A DNA stretch of 64,000 bases from Chromohalobacter moromii (GTDB lineage Bacteria > Pseudomonadota > Gammaproteobacteria > Pseudomonadales > Halomonadaceae), in the NCBI RefSeq assembly GCF_023091865.1, contig NZ_JAHXDI010000004.1, forward strand, positions 372,001 to 436,000, given 5' to 3'. Below are positions 1 through 12,950 of the stretch, one piece after another. The translations under genes and the position numbers were made by a program. A model generated the notes under the pieces. That model had not been told where the DNA came from and did no database searches. It saw only the letters and a list, made by a program, of their open reading frames with translations. Numbering within the stretch: position 1 is the first letter of the stretch; every line of letters starts with the position of its first letter.

Positions 1-1008
1 CTCTACGAGAGTTTAGGGGGAGTCATGGAGCAGTCGTTCATCTTCTCGCGTGGTGAGGCGTTCGATACCGCCGTGCTGATGTCGCATGTCTGGGCGTTGG
101 GCAAAAACATGTTGATGTCCTTGTTGCCGCTGTTCCTCATCGTATCGGTCGTCGCGTTGGTAGCACCGGTCATGCTGGGTGGCTGGCTGATGACGGCGAA
201 GTCGCTGCAGCCACAAGTGTCCAAGCTCAATCCCCTGAAGGGATTGAAGCGCATGTTTTCATCGCAAGCGGTCGCGGAATTGGGCAAAGCCGTTGCCAAG
301 TCGACGCTGGTGGGCGGTGTCGCCGTGAGCTTTCTATGGTGGCATCGCGGCGATCTGCTAGGTCTGATGAGCTTGCCGTTGAGCGAGGCCTTGGCGCGAG
401 GTATGAACCTCGCTGCGCTGTGCCTGGCTTTCTGCGTAGCGACACTCATCGTCGTCGTGTTGATCGATGTGCCTTTCCAGTTATGGAGCTTTACCAAGAA
501 GCTGCGCATGACCAAGGACGAGATCAAGAAAGAGCACAAGGAAACCGAAGGCGACCCTCAGGTGAAGGCCCGCATGCGCGCTCAGCAGCAGTCCATGGCT
601 CGGCGGCGGATGATGGCCAAGGTGCCGGATGCGGATGTCATCGTCACCAATCCCACGCATTATGCCGTGGCGCTGATGTACGAGGGGACTCAGATGGAGG
701 CGCCGCGCGTCGTGGCCAAAGGCTCGGATATGGTGGCCACGCGCATTCGCGAGTTTGGCGAAGCGCATGGCGTGCCCTTGCTGGAGGCGCCGCCGTTAGC
801 GCGTGCTCTGCATCAGCATGTGGACATCGATCAAGAAGTCCCCGCGAATCTGTATACCGCCGTGGCGGAGGTGCTGGCTTGGGCCTACCGCTTGAAACGT
901 GTGCGCGAGGAAGGGGGTGACTGGCCACAAACGCCATATGACCTGCCCGTGCCCGATGAGTTAGACCCGTCTCGGCAAAACGTTGCCGACGCCAAGGACA
1001 CACCATGA
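1..1008 (+). CDS. flhB: FlhB, flagellar type III export switch protein (5' end outside window)
   Basis: Inner-membrane component of the flagellar export gate. It switches substrate specificity from rod/hook to filament proteins after autocleavage. The reading frame is open from base 1, so the N-terminus lies upstream of the window. The visible part has hydrophobic membrane segments, then the conserved KLNPLKGLKRMF stretch, then the charged cytoplasmic linker (KDEIKKEHKETEGDP). The NPTH autocleavage motif is intact in VIVTNPTHYAVAL, encoded near base 655. The stop overlaps the flhA start by 4 bp (ATGA), so the two genes are translationally coupled. Identity is certain from these motifs and from the following flhA. 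Confidence 0.97.
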   Translation, partial: LYESLGGVMEQSFIFSRGEAFDTAVLMSHVWALGKNMLMSLLPLFLIVSVVALVAPVMLGGWLMTAKSLQPQVSKLNPLKGLKRMFSSQAVAELGKAVAKSTLVGGVAVSFLWWHRGDLLGLMSLPLSEALARGMNLAALCLAFCVATLIVVVLIDVPFQLWSFTKKLRMTKDEIKKEHKETEGDPQVKARMRAQQQSMARRRMMAKVPDADVIVTNPTHYAVALMYEGTQMEAPRVVAKGSDMVATRIREFGEAHGVPLLEAPPLARALHQHVDIDQEVPANLYTAVAEVLAWAYRLKRVREEGGDWPQTPYDLPVPDELDPSRQNVADAKDTP

Positions 1009-3089
1009 ATGCGTTGAGTCAGTTATGGGGCCGTCGTGAGTGGCTGAACGACACCCGCTTGAAGGTGCTGGCCGGTCCCTTGCTGATCATCATGATCCTG
1101 AGCATGATGATCCTGCCATTGCCGGCTTTCGTGCTGGACCTTCTTTTTACGTTCAATATCACCCTGGCCGTCATGGTGCTGCTGGTGAGCATGTTCACGC
1201 AGAAGCCGCTCGATTTCGCGGCCTTCCCGGCGGTGCTGTTGTTTTCGACCCTATTGCGGTTGTCGTTGAACGTCGCTTCTACGCGCGTGGTCTTGATGGA
1301 GGGGCACGAAGGCGGCGATGCGGCCGGTAAGGTGATCGAGGCCTTCGGCGCCTTTCTCATCGGGGGTAACTTCGCCGTCGGTTTGGTCGTGTTCATGATC
1401 CTGGTGGTGATCAACTTCATGGTCATCACTAAAGGGGCGGGGCGTATCGCCGAGGTAGGCGCGCGCTTTACGTTGGATGCCATGCCCGGCAAGCAAATGG
1501 CGATCGACGCCGACCTCAATGCCGGCTTGATCGGTGAGGACGAAGCGCGGGCGCGGCGTCAGGAAACCTCTCAGGAAGCCGATTTCTACGGTTCCATGGA
1601 CGGGGCCAGCAAGTTCGTGCGCGGTGATGCCATCGCCGGCATCATCATCATGATGATCAATTTGATCGGCGGTCTGGCGATCGGCATGGCGCAACATAGC
1701 CTGAGCTTTTCCGAAGCTGCCCATACCTATACCTTGCTGACCATCGGCGACGGGCTGGTGGCACAGATTCCGGCGCTGGTGATCTCGACTGCGGCGGGTG
1801 TCACCGTCTCGCGCGTCAACACCGATCAGGATGTCGGTCAGCAACTGATCAGCCAGCTCTTCAACAACCCGCAGGTCCTGATGCTGGCCGCAGGCGTCAT
1901 GGGGCTGCTGGGTCTCGTGCCGGGGATGCCCAACCTGGTCTTCTTGCTGTTTACCGCGTTGCTCGGAGGGTTGGCGTGGTGGATGTGGCGTCGCAACCAG
2001 CAACAAGTCACCGAAGAGGCCTCTCCCCAGACACCGCCTCCTCAGCCCGAAGTGCCGGAGGCGAGCTGGGACGATGTGCAGCTCGTCGATACCCTGGGCC
2101 TCGAAGTCGGCCACCGTTTGATACCGCTCGTCGACCATCGCCAGAAGGGCGAGTTGCTGGGGCGTATCAAGAGCGTGCGCAAGAAATTCGCCCAGGATGT
2201 CGGCTTTTTGCCACCGGTGGTACACATCCGCGACAATCTCGAATTGGGGCCTTCGACCTATATCATCACGCTCAAGGGCGTCGAAGTGGGCCGCGCCGAT
2301 GCGCATCCGGGACAATGGCTGGCCATCGACCCGGGGCAGGTATCGGGCAAGGTGGAAGGTACGCCGACCCAGGATCCCGCCTTCGGGCTGCCCGCCGTAT
2401 GGATCGACGCCGCGCAGCGGGAACGCGCCCAGGTCTACGGCTATACCGTAGTCGACGCGAGTACGGTGGTGGCCACGCATCTCAACCACCTGTTGCATCG
2501 CCACGCCAATGACATGCTGGGGCGCCAGGAAGTACAGCAATTGCTCGACAAGATCGCCGCCGAGAACAAGTCGCTGGTCGAAGACGTGGTGCCCAAGCTG
2601 CTGACCCTGACCGCGATGCAGCGCATCCTACAGAACCTGCTCGCTGAGGAAGTCTCGATTCGCGATATGCGTACCATCCTCGATACGCTGGCCGAGCATG
2701 CGCCACAGCAAGCCGATCCCCATGAGTTGACCGCCATGGTGCGTGTGGCGCTGGGACGCTCGATTACCCAGCAGTGGTTCCCAGGGGACCAGGAGATGCA
2801 TGTCATCGGCTTGGAAGCCAATCTCGAACAAGTTCTCACTCAGGCACTGAGCAATGGCGGTGGCCTGGAGCCTGGACTGGCCGACACCCTCATGGAGCAG
2901 TCGATGGCCGCCGTGGAGCGTCAGGAAGCGCGTGGCGAGCCGACGGTGCTGGTCGTCCAGCACGGTCTGCGTGCCTTGCTGGCCCGCTTCCTACGCCGCC
3001 GCATTACCCATCTAGTGGTGATGTCCAATGCCGAAATCCCCGATGACCGCACCTTGCGTGTCACCGCTACCGTCGGAGCACGTTCATGA
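1005..3089 (+). CDS. flhA: FlhA, flagellar type III export gate protein
   Basis: FlhA forms the nonameric ring of the export gate and docks chaperone-substrate complexes. The protein has 694 residues, the usual family length. The N-terminal half holds about eight membrane helices, including the FHIPEP-type region (RLSLNVASTRVVLMEGHEGG and KFVRGDAIAGI). A linker near residue 340 (EEASPQTPPPQPE) leads to the soluble cytoplasmic domain with LGLEVGHRLIPLVD. The gene overlaps flhB by 4 bp and flhF by 4 bp, so flhB-flhA-flhF is one tightly packed operon. No irregularity is seen. Confidence 0.98.
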   Translation: MNALSQLWGRREWLNDTRLKVLAGPLLIIMILSMMILPLPAFVLDLLFTFNITLAVMVLLVSMFTQKPLDFAAFPAVLLFSTLLRLSLNVASTRVVLMEGHEGGDAAGKVIEAFGAFLIGGNFAVGLVVFMILVVINFMVITKGAGRIAEVGARFTLDAMPGKQMAIDADLNAGLIGEDEARARRQETSQEADFYGSMDGASKFVRGDAIAGIIIMMINLIGGLAIGMAQHSLSFSEAAHTYTLLTIGDGLVAQIPALVISTAAGVTVSRVNTDQDVGQQLISQLFNNPQVLMLAAGVMGLLGLVPGMPNLVFLLFTALLGGLAWWMWRRNQQQVTEEASPQTPPPQPEVPEASWDDVQLVDTLGLEVGHRLIPLVDHRQKGELLGRIKSVRKKFAQDVGFLPPVVHIRDNLELGPSTYIITLKGVEVGRADAHPGQWLAIDPGQVSGKVEGTPTQDPAFGLPAVWIDAAQRERAQVYGYTVVDASTVVATHLNHLLHRHANDMLGRQEVQQLLDKIAAENKSLVEDVVPKLLTLTAMQRILQNLLAEEVSIRDMRTILDTLAEHAPQQADPHELTAMVRVALGRSITQQWFPGDQEMHVIGLEANLEQVLTQALSNGGGLEPGLADTLMEQSMAAVERQEARGEPTVLVVQHGLRALLARFLRRRITHLVVMSNAEIPDDRTLRVTATVGARS

Positions 3090-5287
3090 GCGTGATGCGG
3101 TTTCTCGGTGCCAATAGCCGCGAGGCGATGCGACAGGTACGAGACGCGTTGGGGGATGACGCCCTGATCCTCTCCAACCGGCGCGTGGATGACGGTGTCG
3201 AGGTTGTGGCCGTGGCCGAAGAGGCCCAGTCGTCACTGGTCGAGCAGGCAGAGGACGTCGCCGCGCCCGCGCAGGCTAGTGCTCCTTCAGTCGAGACCTC
3301 GCCCGCGCCGGGGCAAGATCGCCTGTATGCTGAAATGCAGGCCATGCGCGAATTGTTGATGTCGCATATCGCCGAGACACCACGCCCGCGCAGTGCAAGT
3401 CCCGGCGTGCGCGGCGTCTTGCGCCAGCGCTTGATTACTGCCGGCTTCAGCGCCCGTCTGGTACGCGAAATGCTCGAGACGTTGCCCGACGAACTCGCCG
3501 ATGTCGATGCCGATGACCCGCGTTTACTGGCCTGGAGCCGACGTCAACTCGAGACCCGGCTCGCGGTGCTCGATGACGAGGCGACGATGCTCGATGAGGG
3601 CGGTGTGTTCGCCCTGGTGGGGCCGACCGGTGTAGGCAAGACCACGACCACCGCCAAGTTTGCGGCACGTTACGTGATGCGCTTCGGCGGAGACGATGTC
3701 GCCCTGGTGACTACCGACGATTATCGTATCGGTGCGCATGAACAGTTGCGCATCTATGCCCGCTTGCTGGGTGTCGATGTGCATGCCGTGCACCATGAAG
3801 ATGATCTCGAAGACTTGCTATCGCGCCTTGAAGGCAAGCGCATGGTGATCGTCGACACCGTGGGCATGAGTCAGCGCGATCAGCGGGTGACGGGGCAGAT
3901 CGCGCGCCTCGGCGGTGCGGGGCGTCCGGTGCGCCGTCTCTTGCTGCTGAACGCGGCCAGCCACGGCGATACGCTCGAAGAGGTTGTCGAGACCTATCAG
4001 CGAGCCTCGCAGGACGCCGGTGCGCCGCTTTACGGTTGCCTGTTGACCAAGGTCGACGAAGCGCCGCGTCTAGGGGCCGCGCTGGATGTCGTGATGCGCC
4101 ATCGGCTACGCCTTTATTACGTCTTACATGGCCAGCGCGTGCCCGAAGACATTCGCCTGGCCGAAGCGCCAGCGTTATTGGATGAAGCGCTCGCCGTGGG
4201 GCAGGGCTCGCCGTTCACCTTCGATGAAGGCGTACTCACCGAGATGTTGCGGCCCACTGCCTCCGGGCAGGGCCTGCAAGCGCTATCGCGAGATCTCTTG
4301 GCACAGCGCGATCAATTGACGCGGGTGATGGAAACGTTGCAACGCGGCGTACCCGGCGTGGCGTGGCTTGATGCCGCGTGGCACCGTCGTGAGTCGCCAC
4401 GTGCCATACAGCAAGCCTGGCTCGAAGAGCACCTGGCACCGCCGTCGATGATCAAGGCGTGGCATGACGCCGAGGCAACTGGCCTGTTCTGGCCGGGTGG
4501 GAAGCCGCGAGGAATGGATTGGGCGGCGCCGATGCTCCCACTGGACGCCAATGGCGATGTCTTGCCGCTGGCCTGGCCTCTCCATCGTTGGCCGCCGTCC
4601 GACACGCAGCGCCTGACCCTGGCGCGTCGCCATCTGGGCAGTCATTGGCATGTGTTCGCGCGGGTACCCGATGCCGACGTCAGGAAACAGTTGCGCGAGA
4701 CGGATAGCCCCTGGCTAGCACGCACACGAGTGCAGCAGCGCGTCTGGCATGCCGGGGAACGTCTGGCGATCGGCGAGCTGGTCGATCTCGCCGAGCCCTG
4801 TGGCCAGCATACCTGTCGCCTGCGTGGCCGCGCACGACGCGTGACGCTGTCGCGCTTGCCCGTGGCCTTGGCCGAGACCGACGCGGACAGCCTGCAACTG
4901 TGGATTGCGATGAGTCACGACCCCGAGAGCGGGCGTCGGCGGGGCGTCTATCACTGGTTGGGGCATGGGGGCGACGCGCTGGATATCGACATGCGCGCCT
5001 TCGTTTATCGCCAGCTCGAACAGGATGATCTATCGCGTTTGATGCGCACGGCGTGGCAACAGTTGGGCGCATCGGCACCTCTGGATTGCGAACTGCGCGT
5101 CTATCTTGCAGCGCAATTGGCGGCCTTGGCGCTACGGATGGACTTGAGCGAGGATGGCTGGGCGGTGGATGCGCGCCCGGTGGTGAGGCGTCTTGCCGGT
5201 GAGCGCAAGCGACGCAGTCCCGATACCCTGCTGCATGGGTTGTTGCACTTGCTGACGGCGCATGCGGCGCTGTCACAGGCCGCGTGA
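3086..5287 (+). CDS. flhF: FlhF, SRP-type GTPase, with a long extra C-terminal domain
   Basis: FlhF is an SRP/FtsY-type GTPase that places flagella and recruits early basal-body parts. The order is an N-terminal B region (about 1-110), then the NG domain with G1 GPTGVGKTT at 179-187, DTVG at 257-260 and TKVDE at 321-325. The protein has 733 residues, whereas FlhF is usually 400-500. The NG fold should end near residue 385, which leaves about 345 residues (390-733) that I do not recognise. This tail is rich in W, R and L and has no membrane segment. The frame is open throughout with normal codon use, so it is a true extension and not a frameshift. The start overlaps flhA by 4 bp. The gene in the FlhG slot follows after 7 bp. 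Confidence 0.93.
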   Translation: MSVMRFLGANSREAMRQVRDALGDDALILSNRRVDDGVEVVAVAEEAQSSLVEQAEDVAAPAQASAPSVETSPAPGQDRLYAEMQAMRELLMSHIAETPRPRSASPGVRGVLRQRLITAGFSARLVREMLETLPDELADVDADDPRLLAWSRRQLETRLAVLDDEATMLDEGGVFALVGPTGVGKTTTTAKFAARYVMRFGGDDVALVTTDDYRIGAHEQLRIYARLLGVDVHAVHHEDDLEDLLSRLEGKRMVIVDTVGMSQRDQRVTGQIARLGGAGRPVRRLLLLNAASHGDTLEEVVETYQRASQDAGAPLYGCLLTKVDEAPRLGAALDVVMRHRLRLYYVLHGQRVPEDIRLAEAPALLDEALAVGQGSPFTFDEGVLTEMLRPTASGQGLQALSRDLLAQRDQLTRVMETLQRGVPGVAWLDAAWHRRESPRAIQQAWLEEHLAPPSMIKAWHDAEATGLFWPGGKPRGMDWAAPMLPLDANGDVLPLAWPLHRWPPSDTQRLTLARRHLGSHWHVFARVPDADVRKQLRETDSPWLARTRVQQRVWHAGERLAIGELVDLAEPCGQHTCRLRGRARRVTLSRLPVALAETDADSLQLWIAMSHDPESGRRRGVYHWLGHGGDALDIDMRAFVYRQLEQDDLSRLMRTAWQQLGASAPLDCELRVYLAAQLAALALRMDLSEDGWAVDARPVVRRLAGERKRRSPDTLLHGLLHLLTAHAALSQAA

Positions 5288-5294
5288 GGTGACG

Positions 5295-5732
5295 ATGAAC
5301 GATCAAGCGGCAGGATTGCGCGCCTATGCGAGCCAGCGACGCGACAAAGCGGCGCTGGTGACGATCGGCCATCCGTCGCCTCAGGCGGTGACGGCGATCT
5401 GCGAACGCCTTGCGTCACTCAGCGGTCTTGCCTGGGAGACCTTGCCGCTGGCCGTCGGTGATGTGACTGCCACCCAGCGTTCTTCGCCGCATTGGGGCAT
5501 CTGGGTCGCCTCCGGTGCGGAAGGCTTACAGCGCGCCTATCGCGAACTCAAACAATGGTCGCAGCGCGAACGTCTGCCACGTTTATTGGTGATACGCGAT
5601 CCGGCCAGCGCGGGCGATATGCCGCTTGGCAACTTGGTGGATACGGCGCGCCGCTTCCTGGCGGTCGAGCTTGTCGTCGACCCCGCCGAGTGGCTGGCGC
5701 AGACGCTACCGTCAAGCGAGCGTCGGTCGTGA
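5295..5732 (+). CDS. Small FlhG-like protein: DQAxGLR activator motif without MinD ATPase
   Basis: This 145-residue protein sits exactly where flhG (fleN) normally lies, between flhF and the fliA side of the operon. Its N-terminus reads MNDQAAGLR. The DQAxGLR motif is the helix by which FlhG proteins contact FlhF and stimulate its GTPase. The rest shows no Walker A (GKGGVGKT) or other MinD motifs, and length excludes a MinD fold (about 260 residues). Start chosen at ATG 5295 because GAGGTGACG stands just before it. An in-frame ATG at 5262 lies inside flhF. The stop overlaps the flhE GTG start (GTGA at 5729-5732). Function by motif and position: FlhF activator or partner; this is inference. 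Confidence 0.7.
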   Translation: MNDQAAGLRAYASQRRDKAALVTIGHPSPQAVTAICERLASLSGLAWETLPLAVGDVTATQRSSPHWGIWVASGAEGLQRAYRELKQWSQRERLPRLLVIRDPASAGDMPLGNLVDTARRFLAVELVVDPAEWLAQTLPSSERRS

Positions 5733-6160
5733 AGTCTCTTGGCTGCGTCCTGGCTTTGTGGGCGGCGTTAGGCGCCACGCTGAGCATGGCGCCATTCGCG
5801 AAAGCCGTCGAGGCCGGCAGTTGGGCGGTGACGTTGCCGCGTGGGCCGCTACTGACGACGCCGGGGCGTGACGAGCGAACGGCGCCCCTGCGTCCGCCTG
5901 AGGCTCATACGGTCGGCGATGGCCATATCACGCGGGTGTCCTGGCGTTACGTCACGAAGAGACCGAGCGATGTGCGGGCGTGGCTGTGTCATCCGCGTCG
6001 TTGTGTCGAACTGGCGACGCGTCGCGGGGGCACGCGGGCTTTGCAAGGCCTTTCCGCGCAAGGGCCTTTTGTCCTGCGCTTTCGGCGTGCCGCCTCGCGG
6101 AACGCGCCGCGCGCGGGTGTACGCATCGAAGACTTGCAACTGATCGTGAATTACCGCTGA
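5729..6160 (+). CDS. flhE: FlhE, periplasmic flagellar protein
   Basis: FlhE is a small periplasmic protein linked to control of proton leak through the export gate in enterobacteria. The gene reads from a GTG at 5729 that overlaps the previous stop, giving 143 residues. The first 30 or so form a signal peptide (hydrophobic LGCVLALWAALGATL, then AKAVEAGSW). The mature part has family hallmarks: GSWAV near the start, VSWRY, VRAWLCHPRRCVEL with a likely disulfide pair, and the C-terminal LIVNYR. The longer open frame upstream overlaps the previous gene and is not used. It is the last gene before a 136 bp gap to fliA. Confidence 0.85.
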   Translation: MKSLGCVLALWAALGATLSMAPFAKAVEAGSWAVTLPRGPLLTTPGRDERTAPLRPPEAHTVGDGHITRVSWRYVTKRPSDVRAWLCHPRRCVELATRRGGTRALQGLSAQGPFVLRFRRAASRNAPRAGVRIEDLQLIVNYR

Positions 6161-12008: not shown

Positions 12009-12950
12009 TCAGGCATGCGTATGCCAGGGTGAGAGCTCGCCAAGAGCCTCGTAGAGCGGGCGTAGATCTTCGATGGAGGCGGGTGCGTGGGGCTGATGTT
12101 CGATGCGTATGCATAGGCGGTCCGCGAAGGATGTCTCGAGCTGCTCGATCCAGGGGCGTTGTTCCTCGCGCCAATTGGCGAGCCACTGGCTATCGACCGT
12201 AGTGGGCAAGCATTTGTTGATGACGACGGCGCTGACATGCAGGCCGTTGGCTTCCAGCAGGTCACGGGTGCGCGCGGTTTCCAGCGCCGGTAGGCGTTCC
12301 GGGTTGGCGACCAAAATCATCGCCGAGTGCGCAGGGCACGTCAGGTGCTCGCGAGCGGCGGCGAGGCGTCCGCGTCGACGCATCAGCGCTTCCTGAATGG
12401 GGTCATCGACCACTTCGCCGTCTCCCAGCCAGGCCTTGTAGTCGCTGCGCACCTTGTGGCGACGTTGCATCAAGCCGTCTACCCAGGCGCCCATGATTTC
12501 CGGCAGCGCGAGCAAACGCACGGTATGGCCACCCGGCGCGGTATCGAAGATCAAGCGGTCGTAGTGCTGTCCGGTATCGAGCAAAAGGCCGACCAGCGCA
12601 TCGAACAAGGCGGCTTCCTCGGTGCCTGGGGCATGGCGAGCCAAGTCGAGCTGACGAAATACCGCCGCACTGCGTTCGCCGCTCACCATGGGCTTGATGT
12701 TGGCCTTGACCTGGTCCAGATAGCGTTTCGTCTCATGGTCGGGGTCGAGTTCGACGACATCCAGGCCAGGGCGCATGCGCGTCGGCGTCGGGCCGGGTTG
12801 GCGACCGAATAGGTCGGCTAGATTGTGGGCGGGATCGGTGGACACCAGGAGGGTGTTCCATCCGGCATCCGCGCAGCTCAGCGCGTAAGCGGTCGCACAG
12901 CTAGTCTTGCCGACGCCGCCCTTGCCGCCGAAAAACAGGCTTTTGGCCAT
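12009..12950 (-). CDS. ArsA/Get3-family ATPase
   Basis: A 313-residue deviant-Walker-A ATPase. GGKGGVGKTS is at residues 8-17, STDPAHNLAD is the switch I region and DTAPGGHTVRLL is the switch II/A-loop signature of ArsA and Get3. It is a single ATPase domain rather than the tandem domain of plasmid ArsA, and no arsenic genes are near. It is the last gene of a minus-strand run with the small CC-tail gene and cstA, a recurrent grouping that suggests a role in handling or targeting one of those membrane partners. That role is inference. Confidence 0.88.
   Translation of the reverse strand: MAKSLFFGGKGGVGKTSCATAYALSCADAGWNTLLVSTDPAHNLADLFGRQPGPTPTRMRPGLDVVELDPDHETKRYLDQVKANIKPMVSGERSAAVFRQLDLARHAPGTEEAALFDALVGLLLDTGQHYDRLIFDTAPGGHTVRLLALPEIMGAWVDGLMQRRHKVRSDYKAWLGDGEVVDDPIQEALMRRRGRLAAAREHLTCPAHSAMILVANPERLPALETARTRDLLEANGLHVSAVVINKCLPTTVDSQWLANWREEQRPWIEQLETSFADRLCIRIEHQPHAPASIEDLRPLYEALGELSPWHTHA

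Follow-up and report, generated by a model that had tools for sequence, protein, structure and literature searches.

Which protein occupies the place of FlhG in the flagellar locus of Chromohalobacter moromii, and what would it do to FlhF? According to excerpts of a 2025 review, a Gln of the FlhG helix is co-catalytic for the FlhF dimer, ATP drives FlhG between a membrane dimer and a free monomer, and FlhG binds FliM or FliY (PMC12826062). The DNA analysed here is a 64-kb window, positions 372001-436000 of contig C4 in a 3.47-Mb assembly, whose first 7 kb carry the flagellar genes flhB, flhA, flhF, flhE, and fliA, all on the forward strand, together with a small gene between flhF and flhE (Table 1). 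Reading of the open frame and searches of Pfam and NCBIfam confirmed what had been noticed from the letters of this region, namely a 145-residue protein starting with MNDQAAGLR and lacking a P-loop: no GxxxxGK[S/T] motif is present, and no family of either database matched at E ≤ 1. This protein is referred to below as mini-FlhG.

Table 1. Flagellar genes and protein segments at the start of the 64-kb window (window coordinates).
Feature	Coordinates	Strand	Evidence and remarks
flhB, 5' part cut by window edge	25..1008	+	TIGR00328 E 9.5e-105 from model position 61, just above cut-off
flhA	1005..3089	+	TIGR01398 E 1.4e-276, above cut-off; 4-nt overlap with flhF
flhF, long form, 733 aa, GTPase part plus C-terminal extension	3086..5287	+	TIGR03499 E 1.1e-73
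FlhF C-terminal extension, 350 aa, FlhF residues 384-733	4235..5284	+	AlphaFold, Foldseek; predicted Tn5-transposase-like fold
mini-FlhG gene, 145 aa	5295..5732	+	ORF, family searches, hhalign, AlphaFold; FlhG-derived by profile comparison, without ATPase
DQAAGLR enhancer-helix motif, codons 3-9 of mini-FlhG gene	5301..5321	+	DQAxGLR in 30/30 similarity-found genomes, own included; predicted helix 5-17
Putative MinD C-terminal-half remnant, mini-FlhG residues 66-127 (strand-helix-strand-helix-strand)	5490..5675	+	hhalign
flhE	5729..6160	+	PF06366 E 7.4e-22
fliA, flagellar sigma factor, 232 aa	6297..6995	+	NF005413 E 8.5e-95, above cut-off

The mini-FlhG frame runs from an ATG at 5295 to a TGA at 5730-5732. 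It starts 7 nt after the flhF stop codon (5285-5287) and overlaps by 4 nt with flhE, which begins with a GTG at 5729. The FlhC gene lies on the same contig (C4:359028-359540), about 16 kb upstream of flhF. A mini-FlhG gene is present in all ten species of the genus Chromohalobacter in the genome set, and its dN/dS of 0.03-0.10 against nine congeners indicates purifying selection.

The distribution of mini-FlhG was examined in 97 genomes, own genome included, of which 61 belong to Halomonadaceae and 36 to the rest of the order. A whole-protein similarity search found the protein in 30 of these genomes, and all 30 carry DQAxGLR at the N-terminus. Since 18 of the 30 matches started only at residue 45 or later, that is, outside the motif, its conservation is not a matter of chance, and the expectation that orthologues would share it was borne out. 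The linker behind the motif differs greatly in length and is followed by a common core; the enhancer helix is shared even by genera whose proteins are about 30% identical elsewhere, and the MinD-derived core has a mean column identity of 37%. A profile search raised the count to 36 of the 97 genomes and reading of one further locus (G056) to 37.

A pattern scan of named genomes with DQA[AS]GLRx[WY][ASH] gave 139 relatives, of which 80 were kept; because the pattern demanded the motif, these 80 loci are no evidence for its conservation. They come mostly from Halomonadaceae, the others being from Azotobacter vinelandii CA, Stutzerimonas stutzeri K1, Pseudomonas linyingensis, and P. sagittaria, together with eight loci from Pseudidiomarina, Aliidiomarina, and Idiomarina. 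The reading frame is open in all 80. Wherever FlhF was readable (79 loci), the start of the mini gene lies no more than 31 nt from the final sense codon of flhF, and in 27 of these loci the two genes overlap by 4 nt, the start codons having been picked by the analyst. All 79 FlhFs also carry a C-terminal extension of 325-406 aa. No GxxxxGK[S/T] motif occurs in the 81 rows of the family alignment, which includes the window protein, and none of the 81 members gave a MinD-type Pfam match.

With hhalign, the mini-FlhG family aligned weakly to 16 canonical FlhGs at E 3e-4 to 3e-3, covering the C-terminal half of the MinD domain each time, and to 41 FlhGs from the order of genome G202 (beta-type FlhGs) at E 1e-13 and 8e-14, with a probability of 98%. 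The latter alignment scored 93.1; none of 50 column shuffles exceeded 20.4, and a reversed profile reached 14.4. Over 369 genomes of the class, the mini-FlhG profile gave four weak matches outside the family, two of them FlhGs, one matched at its DQAAGLR helix and the other at its C-terminal half. The remaining two were an unrelated protein and a protein encoded beside a ParA-like ATPase; the latter, a frame of 297 aa in a genome of another family (L119:1075-1965, +), resembles the mini-FlhG core at E 1e-6 and is perhaps another degenerate MinD-type partner.

AlphaFold modelling from the 81 rows (mean pLDDT 83, pTM 0.75) predicted a helix at residues 5-17 followed by a five-stranded alpha/beta domain, ending with one short helix (130-137) past the last strand. 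The N-terminal helix is the least confident part, the first 20 residues having a pLDDT of 55-69. On the profile alignments, mini-FlhG is derived from FlhG: behind the enhancer helix come a strand and a helix that stand where FlhG has its P-loop strand, and then the C-terminal half of the MinD domain. Neither a Walker A nor a Walker B motif is left. A MinD origin of the N-terminal strands is suggested by their order and by weak long alignments. MinD strand 2, and then strand 4, were considered as the source of the second strand of mini-FlhG; both assignments were superseded by the hhalign comparison with canonical FlhGs, where this strand aligns with the 'IVPAASG' strand, and its counterpart is best described as ambiguous.

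These data modify the sequence-only reading, in which an FlhF-contact motif had survived, the MinD ATPase had been lost, and the rest of the protein was an unrecognised domain. The first two statements hold; the third does not, as the remainder is homologous to the C-terminal half of FlhG by hhalign. Like FlhG/FleN/YlxH/MinD2 proteins, mini-FlhG is encoded directly after flhF and has a DQAxxLR enhancer helix and, by profile, the C-terminal half of MinD. It differs from them in lacking the P-loop, Walker B, and an obvious membrane-targeting tail, in being about half their length, and in having no MinD match in Pfam or NCBIfam. Since the defining P-loop was looked for and is absent, mini-FlhG is not classed as an FlhG ATPase; it is better described as an FlhG derivative that probably works like the activator half of FlhG.

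Could a full-length FlhG, encoded elsewhere, supply the ATPase? Eight proteins of the own assembly matched PF13614 at E ≤ 10. MinD and a GET3/ArsA ATPase were named by family models above cut-off, an ApbC/Mrp protein fell just under it (its ORF is cut at an inner Met), a ParA-like protein was identified only well under the cut-offs, and the others were named from their sequences as Soj, a Wzc-like kinase, Ffh, and FtsY. None of the eight is a full-length FlhG ATPase, as had been anticipated for this genome. Three canonical FlhGs matched PF13614 and PF10609 at E 1e-17 or better, and three full-length FlhGs without a P-loop were all missed by PF13614, which would thus overlook an FlhG of this type; the mini-FlhG profile had a single match in the own genome, the mini-FlhG gene. 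As an observation in its own right, the GET3/ArsA-type ATPase is encoded by a stand-alone gene of the window (12009-12950, -; TIGR00345 E 1.2e-70), about 5 kb downstream of fliA.

The loss of the ATPase site is not peculiar to the short protein. A census of beta-type loci covered 50 FlhF loci from the order of G202: the top 30 of 82 by score and 20 chosen ones. This order is inferred to be Burkholderiales, because one of its FlhGs (L284) has its nearest plasmid-borne relatives in Burkholderia glumae and Cupriavidus. FlhF was readable in 49 of the 50, and 45 of these have a helix-bearing FlhG downstream, picked by its helix or by a MinD motif; the other four loci (L275, L285, L290, and L296) were left unassigned. 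The Walker lysine is kept in 14 of the 45 FlhGs and lost in 31, which, given how the loci were selected, is not an unbiased rate. In B. glumae, Cys replaces the lysine, and Cupriavidus metallidurans combines a long FlhF bearing the extension with a full-length FlhG that has the helix and no P-loop or Walker lysine. The idea that only the FlhF-contact part survives at the C. moromii locus was thus too narrow, since these 31 proteins also keep the helix without the Walker lysine. As the combination is common in beta-type FlhGs, mini-FlhG appears as the short end of a series. The lysine-less betaproteobacterial proteins (C. metallidurans, B. glumae) share with it the kept helix, the lost lysine, and the lineage of the accompanying FlhF, in which DTVG or DTIG replaces DTAG; they differ in being full-length (about 250-300 aa) with the outline of MinD, mini-FlhG being roughly 110-150 residues shorter.

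A second short form was found in the beta-type order. Locus L295 of genome G479 (1797-2147, +) encodes a 117-aa FlhG in which a DQAEGLR helix is joined directly to the C-terminal MinD half, the same architecture as in mini-FlhG. It is known from one genome only, and the tail of its FlhF is without the extension. In a tree from which 21 rows were left out, including all short-FlhF and order rows, this FlhF adjoins those of species with a full-length FlhG (L300, L301), which argues for an independent shortening.

In Halomonadaceae the series continues to complete absence. Among the 61 genomes, 37 have a long FlhF with mini-FlhG, and three, all from one genus (g7; L099, L100, and L101), have a long flhF with flhE (PF06366 E about 1e-22) immediately behind it, so that mini-FlhG is dispensable there. 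Eight genomes have FlhC and no FlhF above cut-off, four have neither, and nine have a short FlhF without FlhC and without mini-FlhG. A long FlhF, defined by an open frame of more than 700 aa, was therefore present in 40 of the 61, and FlhC accompanied it in 40/40 and mini-FlhG in 37/40, against 0/9 for either in short-FlhF genomes.

The FlhF partner is of a distinct lineage. The window FlhF has N and G domains with the GTPase motifs (TIGR03499, PF00448); as FlhF frames were found by the G1 motif, this motif is no independent test. Its G3 motif reads DTVG, not DTAG. Of the mini-FlhG loci, 78 of 79 have DTVG or DTIG; of the beta-type loci that were readable, 50 of 51 have DTVG or another non-DTAG variant. 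Among the 42 class loci, which include two (L242, L243) of the beta-type order, 36 have DTAG. On these sequences, the non-DTAG G3 is a shared mark of the beta-type FlhF lineage. In a tree of 78 FlhF GTPase parts, which covers part of the loci, skips four order rows without a readable frame, and has a bootstrap not fully settled, a branch with 100/100 support separated mini-FlhG-type and beta-type FlhFs from the native gamma FlhFs, including the short ones of Halomonadaceae. The mini-FlhG-type FlhFs formed one group (100/100), and the beta-type rows formed a single group in only 2% of the bootstrap trees. The latter value suggests that the mini-FlhG-type arose among beta-type FlhFs, with no strongly supported branch forcing this placement. 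Frames of more than 700 aa turned up in three of the 136 FlhF-bearing genomes sampled from the class; two were from Halomonadaceae, and the third (G364) proved to be without the extension.

Taken with published accounts, these patterns suggest that Halomonadaceae, Azotobacter, Idiomarinaceae, and a few Pseudomonadaceae probably obtained a flagellar system of betaproteobacterial, FlhDC type by horizontal transfer, this being the direction of transfer that we infer. According to Leon and Espin, most flagellar genes of A. vinelandii are closest to those of Chromohalobacter salexigens and Cupriavidus necator, its flagella are peritrichous and FlhDC-dependent, a fleN exists apart from the flagellar genes, and Chromohalobacter flagella are peritrichous as well (PMC2885672). 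A. vinelandii also carries the pair of long flhF and mini-FlhG genes (L172). A proposed effect on flagellar number, in the form of a non-monotrichous pattern, would fit the peritrichous flagella of both genera and the presence of FlhC in all 37 mini-FlhG genomes tested, all Halomonadaceae. An Azotobacter-like system need not be peritrichous: in P. fluorescens F113, the second of the flagellar systems is reported to be a homologue of the Azotobacter one and to give a polar tuft (PMC5031763).

Regulation appears to differ as well. Over the 61 Halomonadaceae, PF06490 (FleQ) reached an E of 1.9e-7 at best; several of these matches nevertheless exceeded the curated cut-off, and the own genome had none. 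In other genomes of the order, E was 1e-10 or better in 20 of 36. This is read, short of proof, as absence of a true FleQ from Halomonadaceae. The link of FlhG to FleQ thus seems to be without a target in mini-FlhG systems, which have FlhC instead.

The 350-aa extension of the window FlhF was modelled with high confidence (pLDDT 93, pTM 0.90). In a Foldseek search of the PDB, six matches had an E < 0.001 (1.3e-7 to 1.1e-6), with TM-scores of 0.46-0.51 by query length, and every one of them was Tn5 transposase or its inhibitor; the match ranked after these had an E of 0.083. The extension is thus predicted to fold like Tn5 transposase, that is, with an RNase H-like fold. Sequence comparison gave weaker signals. 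With hhalign, the extension matched five IS4-type transposases at E 0.16. Unrelated pairs reached 0.14 (mini-FlhG with those five transposases), 0.38, and 0.48, so that the match is no better than the first of these. Against 15 transposases the E was 0.045, which is weak, versus 0.45 for mini-FlhG, and the score of 23.4 compared with at most 18.2 in 30 shuffles and 15.5 with a reversed profile. The alignment was collinear when forced to full length. Two viral-contig scans aimed at finding more transposases yielded a single locus. When PDB sequences were searched by profile, the alignment of the extension reached no better than E 2 and that of mini-FlhG no better than E 0.16; a single-sequence search with the window protein returned chance matches only.

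Catalysis by this domain appears to have been lost. Residue 144 of the extension, aligned to the second catalytic Asp, is Asp or Glu in none of 80 sequences, and the same holds for residues 83-87, the expected place of the first; on this alignment the extension lacks at least two of the three catalytic acids, and the Glu could not be placed. The extension may represent a domesticated transposase domain on a flagellar GTPase, sharing with Tn5/IS4-family transposases the predicted fold over its whole length and the weak collinear alignment, and differing in the acids missing at the first two catalytic Asp columns (80/80) and in its fusion to a GTPase. No counterpart of the N-terminal DNA-binding domain of Tn5 was seen in the extension. 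The net charge of the extension is near neutral (median +2.5), which does not favour DNA binding. Extensions were also found in the FlhFs of L284 (E 2.6e-19) and C. metallidurans (E 5e-8); as both have a full-length, P-loop-less FlhG, the extension was apparently gained before FlhG shrank. A long FlhF is already known to NCBIfam as NF011312 (PRK14723, 768 aa), which matches residues 1-388 of the window FlhF and the end of the extension (E 5e-10), with the window FlhF well under the model cut-off (490 vs 951 bits).

How might such a protein work? In the proposed mechanism, the DQAAGLR enhancer helix is the first part and would stimulate the GTPase of the FlhF dimer, as in FlhG. The second part would be a compact alpha/beta core that retains, as its C-terminal half, a piece of the former MinD domain; the P-loop and Walker B are gone, and no obvious membrane-targeting tail is left. 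With the helix present and the ATP site absent, constitutive activation of FlhF would be expected: mini-FlhG would convert the FlhF GTP dimer into the GDP monomer independently of ATP and, unlike FlhG, would not undergo ATP-driven cycling between membrane and cytoplasm. The whole reading, an FlhG reduced to its helix and the C-terminal half of MinD, acting as an ATP-independent activator of FlhF within a transferred beta-type system, is considered likely.

Other explanations account for parts of the data. That mini-FlhG is mainly a tether or scaffold, with GTPase stimulation not its main role, would agree with the conservation of a MinD-derived core devoid of an ATP-binding motif, with the co-occurrence of mini-FlhG and the FlhF extension, and with the binding of FliM or FliY reported for FlhG in the review excerpts (PMC12826062). 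The strongest invariance, however, is in the helix, and the extension persists without mini-FlhG in three genomes and beside a full-length FlhG in Cupriavidus, which makes this role improbable as the main one. It is less probable still that the gene is a vestige with little function and near the loss that other genera have completed, as might be read from the graded series of FlhG with P-loop, FlhG without it, mini-FlhG, and none, and from the eight FlhC-bearing Halomonadaceae without FlhF above cut-off. The low dN/dS within the genus, the helix kept between otherwise divergent genera, and the frames open in 80 of 80 loci all speak against such decay.

A further alternative is that an unrelated domain was fused to an FlhF-binding helix and resembles MinD by convergence. 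The structural search might seem to allow for this: Foldseek found nothing in the PDB at E < 0.001 for the mini-FlhG model and no MinD or FlhG among the 50 rows listed, the top rows being succinyl-CoA synthetase, GFAT-1, flavodoxin-like reductases, and the CheY-like domain of TadZ, all above E 1e-3; MinD-type Pfam models are likewise silent on the 81 members. Without a match at E < 0.001, the fold search is neutral with regard to a MinD origin. The profile homology at E 8e-14, far beyond the shuffled controls, the gene position shared with FlhG, and the existence of related full-length P-loop-less FlhGs and of an independent short form leave convergence hardly credible, and derivation from FlhG is retained as the origin of this domain.

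Descriptions of FlhG present an ATPase with two cooperating parts. A family that is conserved with the FlhF-activating helix and without the ATPase separates these parts in nature and allows one to ask which of them sets flagellar number and which resets FlhF. The review excerpts also state that the betaproteobacterial flagellar operon moved into enteric bacteria without flhF and flhG, or that these were soon lost (PMC12826062); as gammaproteobacteria studied here hold a beta-type FlhF and a worn-down FlhG, the steps of loss can be read in them. As for the extension, domestication of a transposase-like fold by a flagellar GTPase would be unusual. A literature search by title and abstract opening, reaching few subscription journals, found no FlhG without ATPase and no transposase-like FlhF.

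A bolder proposal, which we regard as doubtful, is that the FlhF-FlhG switch was rebuilt in the whole lineage. FlhG would have become an ATP-independent activator, by which the ATP-driven counting step would be gone, and a dead Tn5-type transposase domain, captured by FlhF, would now control positioning or the dimer, perhaps through contacts with nucleoid DNA or with itself. Such systems would be the missing intermediate that links polar flagella run by FlhF/FlhG to the peritrichous ones of enteric bacteria, which are free of FlhF and FlhG.

The Halomonadaceae with a short FlhF show a further arrangement. In the six of nine such loci that were read (L107-L112), the next ORF after flhF is fliA-like and no flhG intervenes, and sigma-70 domains were confirmed in all three of these ORFs that were checked.
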